A stretch of 24,910 bases of DNA, taken from the IMG/VR virus record IMGVR_UViG_3300027821_000028, positions 1 through 24,910 of that record; one strand, written 5' to 3'. Shown here one piece after another: positions 9,677-17,640 of the stretch (positions are counted from its first letter, which is position 1; every line of letters begins with the position of its first letter). The stretch is from a virus. The translations under genes and the position numbers were made by a program. Under the pieces are notes generated by a model, which searched no databases, had not been told where the DNA came from, and was given only the letters and a program-made list of their open reading frames with translations.

Positions 9677-11011
9677 TCAGTATGAAAGCCCGATTGCGTA
9701 ACCGGCTTTTTGTAAATCCGGCAGCTGTTTTTTAAGGCGGCCACCGCCGATATCCGTACGGTATTGCGCACCGTTAGGGATTTTAATGCGTTTCACTGTC
9801 GAATATACGCTTTTTCGCGCCCCCGTTATCGTAGTGCCTTTACCGGTGGCGACATACACGTAATCGGAAGAAGTTACTATTGAAGGGAGCGTGACAATTT
9901 TATTACCCACCAAAGTGGGCGCTTCACCCATCTTCACCTCTACCAAGTGGACGTTATCGTCAGCGTTCACATTGTAGATAGGGACGTTGTCAACGTCTTT
10001 CAGTTCTTCAGCGGGGAAAGGGTAGGGAGGGATAGAGACGACAACCGAAACGCTAACTTCCGGTTGGAAAATCTGGGAGTCCTTCCCCTCAAGTAAGTCC
10101 GTCATCCACGTGGCTGGGTCGCCGTTACGCAGTGCGATCATGTTATATCGCACGGGGCAGCCGTCGCGCATGGTGAACTCCAAAGGCCAAGGGCCTTCCT
10201 TATCGATGATGCAATTCACGTCTACGTAGCCGACGTAGTTCAACTTGTGAAGTGTTTCGGCGAGAGGCAGCACCACTTCGTTTGCCAGCTTGGATTTAGT
10301 GACGCAACGGGCAAGTGTTCCCTGCTCACCTGTCGTGATCCCAAGATCGTCATTCATGAGTTTTTTATACTCCCAGTTCTCGCAAAAGAATTTGGAGAAC
10401 CCGCCGGGACCAAACCACCCACCCGCAGCCATTTCGCAGCCTACTTTTTTCTCCTGGAGGATGAAACCGTCTTTCTTGGCGGCGGCTTTAAGATCTGGCC
10501 GCTTGCTCCACCTATCCAGCATATAGACAAGATCGCCGGCATCGTGTGCAACGTAGGACAAGGCTTTAGCGGCGTCGCCCGATGGCTTGCTTACCAAAAA
10601 TTGAGGATTCTTTTTGACAAAGGCGATAGCGTCCCCGTAATCGTGGAAACGTTTTGTAGGTATGATCCTCATGCCCGCGTCTTGCATGGCCTTTTGCCCT
10701 AAAGCGCGGTCAAGTTCCAACTTTACCGATTCGACATTGCAGCCATACACCGGAACCCCGGCGCGCACATAAGGCTCCAGCATCTCCAAGTAATAGGCGT
10801 TGTCCATCAATACGACTAGGTCGGCCCACCACAGCCATTTTTTGCGCAGCGAGTCGTAATCCTCAATCTTGTCCACAAGTCCGTAACCGGCGGTAGGCCA
10901 CCCGTCTTTTTTTGACGGCTGGTCATACCACATAACTTTATGGCCGTGCGCCTTGCACCGTAGCGCCAAGTCAAGCCCGTTACTTTTAACATCTAAAATT
11001 AATATTCTCAT
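9677..11011 (-). CDS. PurD-like ATP-grasp ligase
   Basis: The 444-aa product resembles phosphoribosylamine-glycine ligase. It has an N-terminal MRILILDV strand-loop typical of the PreATP-grasp fold, a central ATP-grasp domain with FLVSKPSGDAAKAL (about 138-151, with Lys142 as ATP-binding candidate), ILQEKKVGCE (about 184-193), and GYVDVNCII followed by PLEFTMRDGCP (277-286), which matches the EFNxRxGDPE signature of PurD imperfectly. The usual Asn is Thr or Met and the GDPE is GCPV, so the substrate may differ from that of host PurD. The start overlaps the upstream gene as ATGA (11008-11011). Placement after ejection-protein genes means late expression. Candidate roles are nucleotide metabolism, DNA-base modification or peptide ligation. 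Only the fold is well supported. Confidence 0.75.
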   Translation of the reverse strand: MRILILDVKSNGLDLALRCKAHGHKVMWYDQPSKKDGWPTAGYGLVDKIEDYDSLRKKWLWWADLVVLMDNAYYLEMLEPYVRAGVPVYGCNVESVKLELDRALGQKAMQDAGMRIIPTKRFHDYGDAIAFVKKNPQFLVSKPSGDAAKALSYVAHDAGDLVYMLDRWSKRPDLKAAAKKDGFILQEKKVGCEMAAGGWFGPGGFSKFFCENWEYKKLMNDDLGITTGEQGTLARCVTKSKLANEVVLPLAETLHKLNYVGYVDVNCIIDKEGPWPLEFTMRDGCPVRYNMIALRNGDPATWMTDLLEGKDSQIFQPEVSVSVVVSIPPYPFPAEELKDVDNVPIYNVNADDNVHLVEVKMGEAPTLVGNKIVTLPSIVTSSDYVYVATGKGTTITGARKSVYSTVKRIKIPNGAQYRTDIGGGRLKKQLPDLQKAGYAIGLSY

Positions 11012-12993
11012 GGTGGCGTAGGTATCTGGTCGGATGTTGCGGGCATAGCTCTTGCGGCGGTAGCGCCCGCCTGCGCCGCTGGTGCGGCAACTTCGGCGGT
11101 GGCGTATGTCGCTTTTAACGCGTTCACCGCCAGCGTTCTCGCCGCAGCCGAAGGAGCGGTCGCGGCCTGCCGCAATAGGTCGCGGCCTTGCTGCGTAAGC
11201 AGCGCTTTCGACATAGCGTAGGGGGTAAGTACCGCGGTGATCGCCGCCATAGGGTGCGAGAACGCTAACGACGCAGCGCCGCCCATATGTATTGCGCCGG
11301 AAGTGCCGGAAGGGTTCGCACCTGTTTTATCCCCTGCCCTCGCCATGGTGTCGGTCACGTCCTTGATATCTTTTATCTCTTTCGGGGTGAAACCCATCTC
11401 TTTCATTTTTGGCTCCACTCTCTCCATCTCCCTACGGAATTTACCGAACGCCATCGCGGGCTGTCCCGGTACCTCATTTTTCGCGGCGTCAAGGCCGTTG
11501 CGCAATACGAAGGCTTTCGCGTCTTGCAGCACTTCAGGGGAGTGTTCCCTGAGTATTGAAGTTACTTGCGCAGATTGACTAGGGGTCATCGTCAGGTAGC
11601 GCTTAGCGATGGCCTCTGGTGCTTTTGTGCTGAAGGTTTCACCCGTAAAGGCGGCGTCTGTCACGTCCTCGCCCAGCAGCTTGCCAAGCGCGGATTTTTT
11701 GATGTAGTCGATGGACTGCGACGCTTTGGAGTAATTCGTGTTGGCTTCTTTCAGTGCCTTGCCGATCGGTGTGCCGACTGTCGAGGCCTCATCAAAATCC
11801 TTATTGATCGCGCCGAAGAGACGCTTCGCCAGCACCTGATTAGCGTTCTGATCGATATCGGAGAACACGTTACCCGAACGGCGGGCAGCTTTGCCCCACG
11901 CGCTGCGGGTCTTCATGGCCGCGTCAATTGTGGCGGTCTGAGGCCCCGATACGGGGGGCGCGGCCATCCTGGCGGGTTGACCGTTCGGGCCTAGGATAGA
12001 GGGGGCGGTTTCTGTTGGCGCGGTTTCAGCCAACATCTTGCGCATGCCAACGGCTTGGGCATATACCTTTTTGCCGTCGCCTGACGGAACATCCTTGTTT
12101 TCGGCGATGATCTTGTCCAGTGTGTCGAGCGTGTTCTGGTATTTTATTACGGGTTTGTCCCCGGCAAGCTTGCGCACCGCGTCGTAATCGGTCTTCGCTT
12201 GCGTATCGCGCAAGGTGTCGATTTTCTTGACCGTGTTCGTGTAAGCGCTGCGCAGCTGGTTGCCGATACCCTCCTGGTTCAACTGGTTTGCGCTCAGCTG
12301 ATCGGCCAGCTGATTGACACGGTTCGCACCGGCGGTTACCTGCTTCATCTCGTCGGCGGCGGCCGTCCCCTTGGAAGGGAACAGTTCCCGCAGTCTGTTT
12401 TCAGTGAATTGTAAGCCTTTGCTGCCTGTTTCTTGACCAATTGTAAGGGGAATGCCCGACGCTTTAGAAGCGCGCACGGCTTCGCTTGGCGGCTTTGGGA
12501 TACCGCGCAAACCTTCCACTTCACGGCCAAGCGCCGGTAATTTCGGCACTCTCTGGATGCCGGGGCCCTCCACAGGCATACCCGCAAGCTTGCTTTCCTC
12601 AAACGTTTCGCCCGCTTTTTGCAGATACTCTTGCCCTGTTTTTGTACGCGGCTGGTACGTCAGTTTTTCGGCTAGATCGGCGCCGGCGGCTTCGCCTTCC
12701 CTGACTCCTTGGGGTGTGCCGTACTTGCCGCCGGTAACGCCCTTGCCCACACCGTAGATAGCGCCAGCCAGCGCGGCGGGGATGCCGCTGAGCATAGACA
12801 GCCCTGCTTCGCCCGCGCCTAGCGCTTTCTCCCCGAAACTTGGCGCATTGGGCGTCGCGGGTGCTTTCGGCTGCGAGGGAGCGGAACCTAGCTTTTGTTG
12901 CAGGATGCCGAACGCCTGCTCTTTGGTCGCGCCTTCTGGCCCCTCAATATCGTAGGTCTTCCCTTCGGGCGACGTGAATGTGAATTTAGGCAT
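11008..12993 (-). CDS. Putative DNA-ejection/internal virion protein (661 aa)
   Basis: The N-terminal 38 residues have the form FTFTSPEGKTYDIEGPEGAT, a short beta module that often begins phage ejection and internal virion proteins. A Pro/Ala-rich linker and a small-residue membrane-like stretch (about 55-90) follow, then long charged helical regions. Near the C-terminus is another hydrophobic segment (about 575-605), ahead of an Ala-rich tail. This composition and position, third of three large low-complexity genes after the tail and lysis genes, suggest an ejection protein similar in role to P22 gp16/gp20 or T7 gp14-16, delivered into the cell envelope with the DNA. No lytic transglycosylase motif was seen. 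It overlaps both neighbours (TAATG at 12991-12995 and ATGA). Confidence 0.65.
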   Translation of the reverse strand: MPKFTFTSPEGKTYDIEGPEGATKEQAFGILQQKLGSAPSQPKAPATPNAPSFGEKALGAGEAGLSMLSGIPAALAGAIYGVGKGVTGGKYGTPQGVREGEAAGADLAEKLTYQPRTKTGQEYLQKAGETFEESKLAGMPVEGPGIQRVPKLPALGREVEGLRGIPKPPSEAVRASKASGIPLTIGQETGSKGLQFTENRLRELFPSKGTAAADEMKQVTAGANRVNQLADQLSANQLNQEGIGNQLRSAYTNTVKKIDTLRDTQAKTDYDAVRKLAGDKPVIKYQNTLDTLDKIIAENKDVPSGDGKKVYAQAVGMRKMLAETAPTETAPSILGPNGQPARMAAPPVSGPQTATIDAAMKTRSAWGKAARRSGNVFSDIDQNANQVLAKRLFGAINKDFDEASTVGTPIGKALKEANTNYSKASQSIDYIKKSALGKLLGEDVTDAAFTGETFSTKAPEAIAKRYLTMTPSQSAQVTSILREHSPEVLQDAKAFVLRNGLDAAKNEVPGQPAMAFGKFRREMERVEPKMKEMGFTPKEIKDIKDVTDTMARAGDKTGANPSGTSGAIHMGGAASLAFSHPMAAITAVLTPYAMSKALLTQQGRDLLRQAATAPSAAARTLAVNALKATYATAEVAAPAAQAGATAARAMPATSDQIPTPP

Positions 12994-14537
12994 TAGCGCT
13001 CCGTAACCGACCAGCCGGCAGGGATACCGCCGCCTGTTTCGGTGTTTTTGCCCGATATACGCTCGTGTTGCGCGGCCTTTACTTCCTTCGGCGCGGCTCT
13101 CGCCGCAGACATTTCTTTTTCCATCATCTTAAGAACGGCGTTTAACTGCTCAGGGGTATTTGCCGTTGACATTAGTTCACGCGCATGTTCCTTGTCGGTT
13201 TGCGTAGGCGTACCCGATGGACTGATAGCGCGGGAGTAAGCATTAACTGCGGTATTGATAGCCGTGCCAAGGGCAATGACCCGCGGGTCGCCGGTATTTG
13301 TCTGAGCGGCTTGTAGCGCACGGTTCGCGGGTACGAACTCGGAACGCGGCAACGCCGCCGATGCTTCGCGCACAAGCGGGAAGGTCTTTTGCGCTTCGGC
13401 TGCGGCCAATTCCACGTTAGTGGCCTTGACGCCAGCGGTCCTTGCTGCTGCTTTTTCGCCCATGTATCCGACATTGGCCGCCGCGATATCTGCGCCCGAC
13501 ATGCCTCTTTCGTTCGCCATTTTCACGACTTCTTTACGTAAGTTGACGACATTTTTCGCGCCTTGTACGCCTCGCCCAAGGTTTTGATATACAGAATTGT
13601 CACCCGCTAGTTGCTGCTCGGCGAGGAATTTCAAGTCGTCTTTACTGAAGGCGGCATCACCGCCCGCAGCAAGGGTTTGCTTGCGCAAGGCAATGGATTC
13701 CCTCTGTATGCCTATTGAATCAGCATGTGCTTGGGCGCGCTGAGCGCGATCGAGTGAACGATCCTCTGCGCGCTGATCGGCTTCGCGTTTGCGTTCTTCA
13801 AGGTTGTCATGCGCCGTTTTCAGCTGTTCAACCTTGATTTGCTGGTTAAATTGCTGTTGCGCGGCAGCGGCTTGCGCCTTGGATTGCGCGTCAAGCATCG
13901 GCATGAGGTGCTGCAAACCCACCATTAAATCCGCGCCTTGAAGCCCTTGCGCTTGAAGGGTCTTAACTGCGCCTTCCAGCGTCATCTGACCCTGAGGTGG
14001 TGCTGGCGGCTGCGCGGGTTGCGGCGGCGCGCCGATAGCCTGCGGCCCTTGCGGTTGAGCGGGGGGCGTTGTCGGCATTGCCTGGTACGGGGGAGGTTGC
14101 TGCGGCTGGCTGGTTTGCTGAAACTGCTGCGCGCCACGTGCGAACGCCTGCGGGTTCTGCCGCATTAACTGCTGCTGCATCTGTGGCGGTACGCGTGACA
14201 AGTCCAGCCCCTGCGGTTGTTGCGGGGGCGGCGGCATCTGCTGCATAGGCTGCGAGGGCTGCCCCGGCATTGGCGGCTGCGGAGGCGGTACGCCCATCGC
14301 TTGCGCGGGTGCCTGTTGAGGCTGTTGCGGTGGTGGCGCGAACATTTGCGGCAAAGCGTTCCCCACTGCCGCCTGTGCCTGCGCCTGGCGCTGCCGGTCT
14401 TGCTGCTGCTGCTGGAACAGAACTTGCTGCTGCTGCGACTGCTGCTGTTGAATAGCCGCCAGTTGCTGCGCGCGTTGCTGATCCTGTAATTCGCCCTGGT
14501 ACTTGATAAAGTAGGGCATCCCGCCTAATCCGGCCAT
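12993..14537 (-). CDS. Gln/Pro-rich putative ejection protein (514 aa)
   Basis: Residues about 20-195 are extremely rich in Gln, Pro and Ala, with runs of Gln near the start. A coiled-coil-rich middle follows (about 220-290, many Glu, Arg, Lys and Ala). The C-terminal 150 residues form a compact helical domain with the pattern NTAVNAYSRAISPSGTPTQ, then DKEHARELMS. I recognise this C-terminal pattern as recurrent in phage ejection-type virion proteins. The start has AGGGGGA just upstream of the ATG. The gene is the middle of three putative ejection genes. The Gln/Pro tract is probably flexible, which would suit passage through the narrow tail. It has no enzymatic motif. Confidence 0.65.
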   Translation of the reverse strand: MAGLGGMPYFIKYQGELQDQQRAQQLAAIQQQQSQQQQVLFQQQQQDRQRQAQAQAAVGNALPQMFAPPPQQPQQAPAQAMGVPPPQPPMPGQPSQPMQQMPPPPQQPQGLDLSRVPPQMQQQLMRQNPQAFARGAQQFQQTSQPQQPPPYQAMPTTPPAQPQGPQAIGAPPQPAQPPAPPQGQMTLEGAVKTLQAQGLQGADLMVGLQHLMPMLDAQSKAQAAAAQQQFNQQIKVEQLKTAHDNLEERKREADQRAEDRSLDRAQRAQAHADSIGIQRESIALRKQTLAAGGDAAFSKDDLKFLAEQQLAGDNSVYQNLGRGVQGAKNVVNLRKEVVKMANERGMSGADIAAANVGYMGEKAAARTAGVKATNVELAAAEAQKTFPLVREASAALPRSEFVPANRALQAAQTNTGDPRVIALGTAINTAVNAYSRAISPSGTPTQTDKEHARELMSTANTPEQLNAVLKMMEKEMSAARAAPKEVKAAQHERISGKNTETGGGIPAGWSVTER

Positions 14538-14545
14538 GACTCCCC

Positions 14546-15517
14546 CTAGTAGCTACCCGTGTAGCCTGAAAATTGCGGCGACAGGTTGAAACTCCCACCG
14601 GTTGCCGATTGGCTGTTGTCTGCGGTGCCGTAAGGGGAATAACTGCCCCCGCCAAACAGATTTTGCCCAAAGCTTGAATTACCAAGCGCTGAAATACCTT
14701 GACCGACAAGCGCACCTGTCGCGCCCGCGTTTTGCGAAGCGGCGTTGTAAGCGTTCCCGACAGCTCCCTGTCCGTAGTTCATGTAAGGAATTTGCTGAGA
14801 TTGAATACCTTGCGCCTGCCCCAACTGGTTATTCGTGATGCCCTGCGCGGTCTGGTAGGGTAGCTGCCCTGCCATGTTGTAATATCCCGCGCCTTGCGCG
14901 CCGGTAGCCAAGCCCTGCGCTAGATCGGCGTTACCTAATTGACCATAGCTGCCGGCTTGGTTATACAAGTTGCCAAGAGCGCTTGCGCCTTGCGTCGCCC
15001 GTTGCAGCTGGTTGTTCTGCCAATCAATATTGAAATTGGACATGCCCTGATTGTATTCGGAGCCGCCAACGGCAGACCCGCCTAACCCCCGCTGTGCCTG
15101 GCCGACGTTGATCTGGTCGCCCAGCTGTTGCTGGGTGCGGTTGTAGAGCGCATTTTGCGGGTCCCTCGCAAGGTTGTAGATGTCCTGGCCCGCGCCTTGC
15201 AGATAATTCTGCGCGCCGTAAGCTTGCTGTGCTTGCTGGCCTAGTGCACCCGCAAAGGCATCTGCGGAATGCCCAAGAGCGTTATACGTTCGCCCAGCGG
15301 TGTTAGCGGCGTCCTGGTACCCTCCGGCGTAGGGGTTCCCCTGGTTGTATAAACCCATCTGGCCGGTGTTTAAGCGCTGCCAATCCTGATCCGTTGCCCT
15401 CAAACCTGAAGGGACGTATAAATTCGCGTTGCTCCCCGTACCGCCGCCCGAGGAATCGGGGGCGAGTGCCGAACTCACCACACTACCGGCCACCGCCGCA
15501 GCTACTCCCCAAGGCAT
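14546..15517 (-). CDS. Gly/Gln/Asn-rich putative ejection protein (323 aa)
   Basis: The product begins with a short hydrophobic helix (about residues 2-19, MPWGVAAAVAGSVVSSAL). The remainder is dominated by Gly, Gln, Asn, Ala and Tyr in irregular repeats such as QGAGYYNMAGQ, with almost no Lys, Glu or Cys. Proteins beginning with a similar small-residue hydrophobic helix occur as the first ejection protein in several podoviruses, comparable in place to P22 gp7. AGGAG lies 7 bases upstream of the ATG, inside the end of the cupin gene. It is followed by two other large virion-type proteins. The role is inferred from composition and gene order, with no catalytic residue to support it. Confidence 0.65.
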   Translation of the reverse strand: MPWGVAAAVAGSVVSSALAPDSSGGGTGSNANLYVPSGLRATDQDWQRLNTGQMGLYNQGNPYAGGYQDAANTAGRTYNALGHSADAFAGALGQQAQQAYGAQNYLQGAGQDIYNLARDPQNALYNRTQQQLGDQINVGQAQRGLGGSAVGGSEYNQGMSNFNIDWQNNQLQRATQGASALGNLYNQAGSYGQLGNADLAQGLATGAQGAGYYNMAGQLPYQTAQGITNNQLGQAQGIQSQQIPYMNYGQGAVGNAYNAASQNAGATGALVGQGISALGNSSFGQNLFGGGSYSPYGTADNSQSATGGSFNLSPQFSGYTGSY

Positions 15518-15519
15518 GA

Positions 15520-15816
15520 TTATTCTCCTTTGATCAAAACATGATCGATTTTATCGGCATCGGTTTCACTGGTTGCGTGAACGCAAAACCAAGTAATGTC
15601 CGTCAATGCGGTAATTCTATGCTTTTTACCCGCTTTAATCTCTACTACACAAGGACCCTCGTAAACTTCTACGCTTCCGTCCAATTCTACGGCGGCGGTA
15701 CCCGAACCCAGAATGCCGAAGTGGTCGTAGTTGTGTTTGTGAGTCTCTACGGCTTGGTGTGCGCGTAAGTCCTGCTCTCTTACATACGTTCCGGCCGAAA
15801 AGTGGTGTTTGATCAT
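15520..15816 (-). CDS. Small cupin-fold protein (98 aa)
   Basis: The product has a cupin metal-binding pattern: ETHKHNYDHFGILGSG (His26, His28 and His32, the last where Glu is usual) and a second half with GKKH (His66). This suggests a single-domain cupin binding one divalent metal. The substrate cannot be told. I chose the ATG at 15816, which overlaps the oxygenase stop as ATGA, over a GTG at 15825. The pairing with a Fe/2OG oxygenase gene directly upstream, with translational coupling, suggests they act together. Phage late operons sometimes carry such pairs without a proven function. The end of this gene carries the ribosome binding site of the next. Confidence 0.75.
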   Translation of the reverse strand: MIKHHFSAGTYVREQDLRAHQAVETHKHNYDHFGILGSGTAAVELDGSVEVYEGPCVVEIKAGKKHRITALTDITWFCVHATSETDADKIDHVLIKGE

Positions 15817-16376
15817 TTTTCGCACCTAATGCAAATAATTAATGTGATTCTGTCGTCCTGGCCGTCGTTGATAACTTCGTGTTCCTTGGTGTTGTCGAAG
15901 TACCATACTTCGCCGGGGGCCATGCTCACCACGTCATCTTCTACCCGATTGGTGCATTGCGGGTTCGATTGCAGCACCACATAAAGCTTCGTGTTGTAAT
16001 GCTTGGCGTGCCAGCCGTCATCGCTGTGCGGGGCTATCCTACCGCCCGGCGGTATCTTCGTGATCATCACGCCGCCTAGCCGCACGCCTTCCACTCTCGC
16101 CATCAAGCCCATAACGATCGGTCGGGCTTGCGGCAGAGCATACCACTCTGGGTAAAACACGGCGTCGTGAGGGTCATTGAACCCGGCGTAGTCACCCGTC
16201 AGTTCATAGTCTTTCACGTCGTTGTACCGCAACCAGATATCGGACATTTCCGAATGCGGGGTGCCTGGTGCTTCCTTGCGCACCTTGTGGCGGTTCCACA
16301 GCTTCGGCTGGCGCTGCACGGCCAGCAGCAGCGGTACCACGTCAATGCCTTGCGCTATCTTTAGTAAGTTCTTCAT
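15813..16376 (-). CDS. Asp/Asn beta-hydroxylase-like Fe(II)/2-oxoglutarate oxygenase
   Basis: The 187-aa product has the double-stranded beta-helix signature of the aspartyl/asparaginyl beta-hydroxylase group: IAPHSDDGWHAKH (His117 and Asp119 of the metal triad), GEVWYFDNTKEHEVIN (distal His166), and RITLIICIR with Arg176 as a 2-oxoglutarate anchor candidate. The metal-binding triad is intact, so it is probably active. Family members hydroxylate protein side chains or small peptides. It overlaps the 3TM holin stop as ATGA (16373-16376) and the cupin start likewise, so it is expressed with late genes. Possible targets include virion proteins or host factors, and none can be named from sequence. 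Confidence 0.85.
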   Translation of the reverse strand: MKNLLKIAQGIDVVPLLLAVQRQPKLWNRHKVRKEAPGTPHSEMSDIWLRYNDVKDYELTGDYAGFNDPHDAVFYPEWYALPQARPIVMGLMARVEGVRLGGVMITKIPPGGRIAPHSDDGWHAKHYNTKLYVVLQSNPQCTNRVEDDVVSMAPGEVWYFDNTKEHEVINDGQDDRITLIICIRCEK

Positions 16377-16951
16377 GGTTGATTGTCATTCGGTGTTGAT
16401 TGCGCAAGCAGTTCTGTTTTCCTTGCGCTGCCCTGCGTATCTCCGAAATAGAAGGCCAGTACGGCTTTAGCCTCCCCAAACAGGTAGCCGATAACGGTGC
16501 CGACCATGGTCGCCGTAGTGGTGTCGCCCATGGCAACATGCCCTGTCAGGATGGCCCCGGCTGCGCACAATGTGCCCATGATGATTGCCGAACCGAATAC
16601 GGCGGGGATGACGGACTTTACGGCCACCTGCATGCTTCGGGCGCTAGACCTGTCATCTACAAAAGCCTTGGTCACGGCTTCGTCGTGCGCCGCGTTCAAC
16701 TTTTGCACGTCAATGCCCTGCTGCGCCATGATTTCGGCGTGTTTCTGATCGGCGGCGCGAACGGCGGCGATGGTGTCGGGCGTCATCGCGCCCGTTTGCA
16801 GAACCTGAGTGATACCGTCAGTTCCGGCGCCGGGCTTTAGGCCGAATGCGCCTTCCAACGCCGTAACGGCAACGCCCGCTAACGGGCCCCCCAACATCGT
16901 GGCGAGTGTGGGGGCGATAGAAGCGATAACGCTTTTTAGATCAAAGTTCAT
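16373..16951 (-). CDS. 3TM holin (GTA-holin-like)
   Basis: The 192-aa product fits the 3TM holin family first noted in gene-transfer-agent and phage lysis regions. It has an N-terminal hydrophobic segment rich in small residues (about 7-37), a charged helical stretch with the conserved DDRSSARSMQ motif (99-108), and two further membrane segments (about 112-137 and 145-170). A polar tail follows. It lies right after the lysozyme, where holins normally sit, so it probably permeabilises the inner membrane to release the lysozyme. The start overlaps the stop of a 31-aa ORF. A second, smaller holin candidate lies upstream of the lysozyme, and which one triggers lysis is unknown. Confidence 0.75.
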   Translation of the reverse strand: MNFDLKSVIASIAPTLATMLGGPLAGVAVTALEGAFGLKPGAGTDGITQVLQTGAMTPDTIAAVRAADQKHAEIMAQQGIDVQKLNAAHDEAVTKAFVDDRSSARSMQVAVKSVIPAVFGSAIIMGTLCAAGAILTGHVAMGDTTTATMVGTVIGYLFGEAKAVLAFYFGDTQGSARKTELLAQSTPNDNQP

Positions 16952-17046
16952 TATTCACTGTCCTTATCGTTTCCGCTGTACGTTAGAAGAAAAAGTAATA
17001 TAACCACTGTCTTAACCGCCAGCGCTACGTCGAGGAGGGTTGGCAT
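16951..17046 (-). CDS. 31-aa single-pass membrane microprotein (candidate lysis regulator)
   Basis: A short frame begins within the last codons of the lysozyme gene (ATG at 17046) and ends exactly at the start of the 3TM holin with a TAATG junction. Translation gives MPTLLDVALAVKTVVILLFL then LTYSGNDKDSE: one strongly hydrophobic helix and an acidic tail. There is no Cys or lipobox, so it is not an Rz1-type spanin. A role as antiholin, pinholin-like factor or translational leader for the holin is possible. The ribosome binding site is weak (GGG 11 bases upstream), so it could also be a chance frame. Confidence 0.4.
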   Translation of the reverse strand: MPTLLDVALAVKTVVILLFLLTYSGNDKDSE

Positions 17047-17477
17047 GGCGATGTCATCCCTAGCCTAAACAGCGCGGCCCCTGCGGCTCTGCGCTTCACT
17101 AAACCCGGCAGTACTCTACCTCCTGCATAAATCCATCGCCCAAACTCATCCGCAGCGCCTTCGTAATCCTCTGCGTTGAGTTTTTTCAGTAACGTTGACG
17201 ATTCAAAATTCCCCATGCCAACGTTAAACACAAAATCGGCCAGAGCCGTTTTCTGATTATCCGTCAATGGCACCTTGACGAAATGCGCCACCGTACTACA
17301 GGCTACCGCCAAGTCATCGGCTAGCCACTGGTCCGCCTGTTCTGGCGTGCAGGTGTCGCCTTCCTTAACGCCCTTGGTGTGGCCGTCCCCTATGGTCCAA
17401 GGTGCGCCACCCGTACCCGGATCGGGATAGGCGGTAAGACGGCGTCCCTCGAATTGCTTTGTGAAATCAATATTCAT
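17025..17477 (-). CDS. Endolysin: GH24 (T4/lambdoid-type) lysozyme
   Basis: The 150-aa product has the glycoside hydrolase 24 core: FEGRRLTAYPDPGTGG, with catalytic candidates Glu10 and Asp19, then WTIGDGHTKG with Thr28. The middle contains the conserved LTDNQKTALADFVFNVG stretch, and the C-terminal half ends in GLVKRRAAGAALF, typical of the family. It cleaves the glycan strands of peptidoglycan. There is no signal peptide or SAR helix, so it needs a holin for export. I chose the ATG at 17477, 6 bases from GGGG (17484-17487), over the ATG at 17483. It overlaps the small holin gene upstream. The family usually reads GYGH where this one has GDGH. Confidence 0.92.
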   Translation of the reverse strand: MNIDFTKQFEGRRLTAYPDPGTGGAPWTIGDGHTKGVKEGDTCTPEQADQWLADDLAVACSTVAHFVKVPLTDNQKTALADFVFNVGMGNFESSTLLKKLNAEDYEGAADEFGRWIYAGGRVLPGLVKRRAAGAALFRLGMTSPCQPSST

Positions 17478-17640
17478 GCGCATCCCCTTTTTTATTCAGC
17501 CAATCCTGCACTGTTTTGGATTCGTATATCCTAATAAGCATCCACGCAATCGTTAGTACGCTGGAAATTGCAGGGAACCACCCTAGCAGAGAAGCCGCTG
17601 TCACCGTTACGGCGGCTCCGTCACATGCGTCTTTAAACAT
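17467..17640 (-). CDS. Small putative holin (57 aa)
   Basis: This short gene lies between the Cys-containing protein and the lysozyme. Three consecutive ATGs (17646, 17643, 17640) follow GGGGGA, and the last has the best spacing. The protein reads MFKDACDGAAVTVTAASLLG, then a hydrophobic stretch WFPAISSVLTIAWMLIRIYE, then a basic and acidic polar tail. One or two membrane segments and a length below 70 aa resemble small phage holins (T7 gp17.5-like class). Its stop overlaps the lysozyme start. The position just upstream of an exported lysozyme strongly favours a holin role, though no family-defining motif exists. Confidence 0.7.
   Translation of the reverse strand: MFKDACDGAAVTVTAASLLGWFPAISSVLTIAWMLIRIYESKTVQDWLNKKGDAHEY

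Follow-up and report, generated by a model that had tools for sequence, protein, structure and literature searches.

Slot enzymes before the first ejection gene of short-tailed phages covary with residue 2 of its product

In T7 and P22, the position after the tail genes and directly before the first ejection gene is occupied by gp13 (PF11090) and gp14 (PF11039), respectively. The role of these two proteins, and of the GNAT counterparts found beside podovirus ejection proteins, is a long-standing question; a phage GNAT at this position, 'pc40', was earlier likened to T7 gp13 and linked to virion morphogenesis by its position (PMC6775973). In the present study, we analyzed an IMG/VR fragment of a short-tailed phage (IMGVR_UViG_3300027821_000028) whose major capsid protein is of the N4-gp56 type; the whole stretch of 24,910 nt is called the window. 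Here the same position (the slot) holds genes for an iron/2-oxoglutarate (Fe/2OG) oxygenase and a cupin, which precede the ejection-type genes ej1, ej2, and ej3 and a gene for an ATP-grasp protein. The oxygenase and the cupin have folds unrelated to those of T7 gp13 and P22 gp14 and do not match PF11090 or PF11039. A sequence-only reading of the window had pointed out the three enzyme-like genes on the minus strand, and all three open reading frames (ORFs) are indeed present and intact. Its observation is thus confirmed and its interpretation, a modification late in infection, is partly supported. It did not foresee that the oxygenase and the cupin form an interchangeable slot tied to ej1, and that the ATP-grasp gene stands apart from it, as a module linked to ej3.

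The slot and residue 2 of ej1

We classified the neighbors of ej1 (T7 gp14/P22 gp7-like) in phage loci fetched for comparison, designated by L-numbers. The enzyme encoded directly upstream of ej1 varies between phages: the slot contains a GNAT, a cupin, a cupin fused to a SET domain (cupin-SET; PF00856), a SET protein (with a sulfotransferase-like protein in L154), an oxygenase with a cupin, or an oxygenase with a GNAT. An enzyme gene directly precedes ej1 in phages of the window clade, bog-lake phages, a T7-like phage, and P22-like phages, even where the surrounding gene order is rearranged; in such phages the cupin gene lies behind a terminase-like gene, yet still before the ej1-like gene. 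In the T7-like Sphaerotilus phage R1, the slot cupin gene is found between the genes for tail tubular protein B and a gp14-like protein, the latter matching PF24072. The ej1 product of the window itself had no family match; in several other lineages, the proteins at the ej1 position, equivalent to it by homology or by place, have matches to DNA-ejection, T7 gp14, or P22 gp7 families.

Some slots deserve separate mention. In the bog-lake phages L058, L060, L063, L066, L074, and L075, the cupin carries a C-terminal SET fusion (phrog_34170) and ej1 always begins with Met-Ser. In a Saccharibacteria-binned phage (L154:4096-5029), a free SET-domain protein and then the sulfotransferase-like protein are encoded before ej1 and may represent two additional modification enzymes. 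The slot of L026 (1277-1687) encodes a 136-aa protein without a Pfam match but with a GNAT-like C-terminus, which could be a bridge to T7 gp13-like proteins. Limnohabitans phage DC33 (PQ492659.1, L003; 39 kb) is filed under Inoviridae; its genes are tailed-phage-like and include an adjacent oxygenase and GNAT.

Residue 2 of the ej1 product follows the slot enzyme (counts are from non-redundant sets). Behind a cupin with four histidines at positions 29, 31, 35, and 69, as in the window, ej1 begins with Met-Pro in 62 of 63 cases. Cupins without the four histidines precede Ser, Thr, or Ala (proline in 0/67), GNATs precede Gly, Ser, Cys, or Val (0/18), and the oxygenase-GNAT pair mostly precedes Val (0/15; a few starts are uncertain, and none of these offers Pro). 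Over all cupin and GNAT classes other than the four-histidine cupin, proline was found in 0/100, and the sole phage with an oxygenase only (L004) has Met-Pro. Thus, proline goes with the four-histidine cupin or, in one case, with an oxygenase without a GNAT. The association between slot enzyme and Pro2 gives a Fisher p of 9e-45 before correction for kinship. N-terminal proline is not a usual substrate of acetylation, and the mutual exclusion of GNAT and proline fits this.

The pattern is not an artifact of gene overlap, in which ATGA forces the second codon to begin with A: when overlapping genes were excluded, proline was found in 60/61 behind four-histidine cupins versus 0/50. No comparable pattern at residue 2 was seen in the controls ej2 and ej3. 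Apparent exceptions in L099, the L133 group, L237, and L222 were errors in start-codon calling, and L028 and L078 were set aside as exceptions because their cupin sits outside the slot. In these two GNAT-type phages, a second four-histidine cupin is encoded upstream of the tail genes, at about 1.4-2.2 kb. The literature searched contained no report of a link between slot enzyme and ej1 residue 2, and no paper on N-terminal modification of ejection proteins was found in a search that excluded subscription papers.

Shared descent was weighed with a tree of the ej1 body (residues 41 onward, one large family). Six changes of enzyme class and six changes of proline were observed, all concordant; three of the six concordant pairs lie on well-supported branches, and all three agree. 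Concordance was also seen in four further ej1 families with more than one enzyme class, and the ej1 families are mostly unalignable with each other. By our own count, some ten contrasts result, and all point the same way (two-sided sign test, about 0.002, or 0.016 with the well-supported contrasts only). Furthermore, L044 and L070 share 97% identity until the tail gene ends, diverge across the enzyme genes and through codon 38 of ej1, and then resemble each other again. The same exchange is seen between L060 and L029, with cupin-SET in one and GNAT in the other; over both pairs, the swapped ej1 stretches cover 29-38 codons. Enzyme and ej1 tip travel together, although the joint swaps alone cannot separate functional matching from linkage. 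What was observed directly is that the slot is conserved, that its enzymes are swapped, and that residue 2 of ej1 covaries with the type and the active site of the enzyme.

Possible chemistry and its alternatives

The oxygenase belongs to the Asp/Asn/Pro hydroxylase family PF05118 (61 bits; cut-off, 22.6). The metal-binding triad His117, Asp119, and His166 named in the sequence-only reading is invariant across 29 relatives, and Arg176 is kept in at least 90% of them. Its nearest solved relatives are the free L-proline cis-4- and 3-hydroxylases (4p7w and 1e5r), with which the HxD motif, the distal His, and the Arg align. In a profile search of the PDB, L-proline cis-4-hydroxylase ranked top (5e-10), followed by 1e5r (5e-7; a proline hydroxylase, though its PDB label reads proline oxidase) and AspH (4e-5).

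The cupin, recognized as a cupin in the sequence-only reading, is Cupin_2-like, slightly under the Pfam cut-off, and its predicted structure is a confident beta-barrel (pLDDT 90). This small barrel resembles TM1459 and biosynthetic cupins in structure. TM1459 is likewise a small single-domain barrel, and the spacing of its four Mn-site histidines (52/54/58/92; PMC5031596) is identical to that in the phage cupin (29/31/35/69), although no significant sequence match between the two was found. By this analogy, the four-histidine cupin may be an oxidative metal enzyme like TM1459; its catalytic ligands are strictly conserved in four-histidine cupins. In the largest subclass of slot cupins (L312-L385), a conserved K-H-H-R replaces the four histidines and ej1 begins with Thr, Ser, or Ala, which suggests another chemistry or metal-free binding. 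Databases and phage records list the cupin families PHROG 24280 and 12032 as 'tail fiber adhesin' and 'short tail fiber protein'; to judge from gene position and fold, these names are probably misannotations. As for the slot GNATs, their profile matches general acetyltransferases and, weakly, the N-terminal acetyltransferase Naa30. No match was found between this profile and T7 gp13 or P22 gp14, each taken as a single sequence, and a scan of viral contigs with a single GNAT protein returned only the query contig.

The covariation of enzyme with residue 2 is strong, and from the sequences we infer a chemistry for it. One possible explanation, to which we give an even chance, is that the slot enzymes are late maturation enzymes of the ej1 N-terminus, and that the oxygenase and the four-histidine cupin oxidize or otherwise modify Pro2. 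Cleavage of Met1 by the host methionine aminopeptidase would leave Pro2 at the N-terminus, where the cupin and the oxygenase would then act on it as a free proline. Since an N-terminal proline offers a free proline ring and the oxygenase has proline hydroxylases as relatives, hydroxylation is the simplest proposal, and the ej1 N-terminal proline may be the oxygenase target. At the same position in related phages, the GNAT would presumably acetylate the alpha-amino group of an ej1 product beginning with Gly, Ser, Cys, or Val, and the cupin-SET protein would presumably methylate Ser. Such a modification might prepare the hydrophobic ej1 tip for assembly or for entry into the membrane, or make it more stable. 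Among the targets named in the sequence-only reading, this favors a virion protein, at the N-terminus of ej1; a small molecule or a host protein would explain less.

More tentatively, and with the chances leaning against it, short-tailed phages may possess a set of interchangeable N-terminal modification enzymes, each matched to the starting residue of the first DNA-ejection channel protein, in which an acetyltransferase serves Gly, Ser, or Val, a SET methyltransferase serves Ser, and an Fe/2OG oxygenase with a four-histidine cupin serves Pro. If this is true, the oxygenase would be the first N-terminal prolyl hydroxylase encoded by a virus and directed at a virion protein, and the slot enzymes would have T7 gp13 and P22 gp14 as functional relatives. 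Post-translational finishing of the ejection-channel tip would then be a general step of phage assembly or infection, with a phage-specific chemistry that is swappable as a cassette. Since the covariation points to one particular substrate and residue, a single mass-spectrometry experiment on virions could test it.

Several points weigh against a modification of Pro2. One four-histidine cupin (L310) precedes an ej1 beginning MVW. Phages with oxygenase and GNAT begin with Val or Gly, so that the oxygenase alone does not set proline; paired with a GNAT, it may have a different residue as its target, or whatever its partner leaves. Free-proline hydroxylases are about 290 aa long and have a C-terminal part, whereas the phage oxygenase (187 aa) stops at the core, and no match to that C-terminal domain was found in it at E<=1; furthermore, those enzymes take free proline, whereas the proposed substrate here is the N-terminal proline of a protein. 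The tree of the cupins shows a single split between four-histidine/Pro and non-four-histidine/non-Pro members, and, as it has one transition, it was left out when repeated evidence was counted. Finally, the enzyme gene adjoins the 5' end of ej1, so that some of the linkage is due to their being transferred together. Linkage might even be the whole explanation: unrelated enzyme genes would move with the first codons of ej1, recombination would join them within the conserved ej1 body, and residue 2 would hitchhike. The contiguity and joint exchange of enzyme gene and ej1 5' end, as well as the single cupin split, agree with this. However, proline is kept across unalignable ej1 bodies, every contrast in the ej1 tree agrees, and the drift of residue 2 expected in four-histidine lineages is nearly absent (1/63); we therefore consider linkage alone quite unlikely.

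The slot proteins could instead be dedicated chaperones or assembly factors that recognize the ej1 N-terminus without chemistry, as suggested for T7 gp13, using enzyme folds for binding. T7 gp13 (a probable scaffold protein by its Pfam name) and P22 gp14 share the slot, the connection of a slot GNAT with gp13 and virion morphogenesis points the same way (PMC6775973), and with K-H-H-R in the largest cupin subclass some members may bind no metal. We regard this as unlikely but deserving attention, as the ligands of the oxygenase and the four-histidine cupin are strictly conserved and five kinds of enzyme in one slot suit chemistry better than binding. Much less probable is a late envelope or small-molecule chemistry, in which the oxygenase acts on lipid A like LpxO or the three enzymes make a metabolite. 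In NCBIfam the oxygenase weakly matches the lipid A hydroxylase LpxO (25.9 bits; cut-off, 500) and an ornithine-lipid hydroxylase, and ATP-grasp proteins and cupins are frequent in biosynthesis. However, such a chemistry leaves the gene position and the covariation with ej1 unexplained, the enzymes are swapped for GNAT or SET proteins, and oxygenase and ATP-grasp are each found without the other.

Gene layout and co-occurrence

On the minus strand of the window, the genes run in the order capsid, tail genes, lysozyme, 192-aa gene, oxygenase, cupin, ej1, ej2, ej3, and ATP-grasp (Table 1). The ATGA overlaps that had been read at the oxygenase/cupin and ej3/ATP-grasp junctions were verified, and a third joins the 192-aa gene to the oxygenase gene. 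The start of ej1 is preceded by a strong ribosome-binding site, AAAGGAGA. The cupin start is taken as the coupled ATG at 15816; the ORF list has a GTG at 15825, from which the residues are numbered.

Table 1. Features of the window around the slot and the ejection-type genes
Feature	Position (nt)	Strand	Remarks
Lysozyme/endolysin	17025..17483	-	PF00959
192-aa protein, candidate holin	16373..16951	-	phrog_1544; ATGA-coupled, upstream of oxygenase
Fe/2OG oxygenase, 187 aa, L-proline-hydroxylase/AspH-like	15813..16376	-	PF05118; ligands H117, D119, H166; R176 conserved
Four-histidine cupin	15520..15816	-	His29, 31, 35, 69 and invariant His83
ej1, first ejection-type gene, 323 aa	14546..15517	-	starts ATG CCT TGG (Met-Pro-Trp); proposed substrate of slot enzymes
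ej2, second ejection-type gene, 514 aa	12993..14537	-	control gene, without residue-2 pattern
ej3, third ejection-type gene, 661 aa	11008..12993	-	ATGA-coupled to ATP-grasp gene
PurD-derived ATP-grasp ligase (putative), 444 aa	9677..11011	-	K142, E193, D264, E278, R282 invariant; T280 >90% conserved

The arrangement is repeated in more than 100 related loci and is thus not due to chance. In 53 contigs with the oxygenase (L086-L138), the cupin is present in 53/53 and the ATP-grasp gene in all but 3, two of which are shorter than 5.4 kb. Among oxygenase-cupin loci that extend at least 7.5 kb downstream from the oxygenase, 101 have the ATP-grasp gene and 8 lack it; these are counts of loci, not of independent phages, and many rows come twice from one contig. 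The 8 loci belong to other phage lineages, and some may end short of the ATP-grasp position. Co-occurrence of the three families, on which the sequence-only reading depended, therefore holds in related phages. It reaches past the Burkholderiaceae prophage clade of the window, whose close relatives have Paraburkholderia species as named hosts: in the distant lineage L044 and L047, the cupin, the oxygenase (29% identical), and the ATP-grasp gene are all present. However, the ATP-grasp gene also occurs with GNAT, with cupin-SET, or with no known slot enzyme, and oxygenase-cupin or oxygenase-GNAT pairs also occur without a detected ATP-grasp gene. A single pathway for all three enzymes is unsupported by these independent combinations, in line with the earlier caution that the three need not share one.

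The ATP-grasp module

The ATP-grasp protein is PurD-like across most of its sequence, and its signature, PLEFTMRDGCP, is as first quoted. Among 45 relatives, Lys142, Glu193, Asp264, Glu278, and Arg282 are invariant and Thr280 is conserved in more than 90%; the altered signature is family-wide, and it is therefore neither decay nor a sequencing error. The ATP lysine and the metal-binding acids of the superfamily are kept (Lys142, Asp264, and Glu278, with roles assigned by homology). The model (pLDDT 89.9) superimposes on PurD (glycinamide ribonucleotide synthetase; 2yw2) with Z 32.6 over 395 residues and an rmsd of 3.3, so that the complete fold and the order of N, ATP-grasp, and C domains are shared. 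In an alignment with four true PurD proteins, however, the motifs GGREHA, GNxGTA, VGPExPL, GPNTGGMG, and EFNxRxGDPE are all replaced family-wide, and the family has instead a conserved DVNC...EFTxRxGWP core.

A phage PurD that supplies nucleotides would account for the full-length fold and the match to the PurD profile. However, the score against this profile (TIGR00877) is 73.5 bits, under the curated cut-off of 288, and all four searched genomes that carry the phage ATP-grasp gene have their own PurD (557-573 bits, over the cut-off). Together with the lost motifs and the late position behind ej3, these results led us to reject this identity, which we consider extremely improbable, and they uphold the earlier argument against ordinary nucleotide supply. 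Judged from its sequence, the protein is a PurD-derived ligase, not PurD, with a different acceptor. Its gene starts at or very near the stop codon of the last ejection gene in most lineages, whichever enzyme occupies the slot. It is probably an amide ligase in its own right, produced along with ej3, and as a weak guess it could also modify an ejection protein; a conserved C-terminal tag that might be its substrate was not seen on ej1 to ej3. The amidoligase/ATP-grasp clusters of LUZ24-like phages (PMC3890496) likewise contain ATP-grasp ligases of phages for which a role in protein or metabolite modification is suspected. Those clusters are located among early genes together with GATase and amidoligase genes, whereas the ATP-grasp gene of the window lies among late ejection genes and is derived from PurD.

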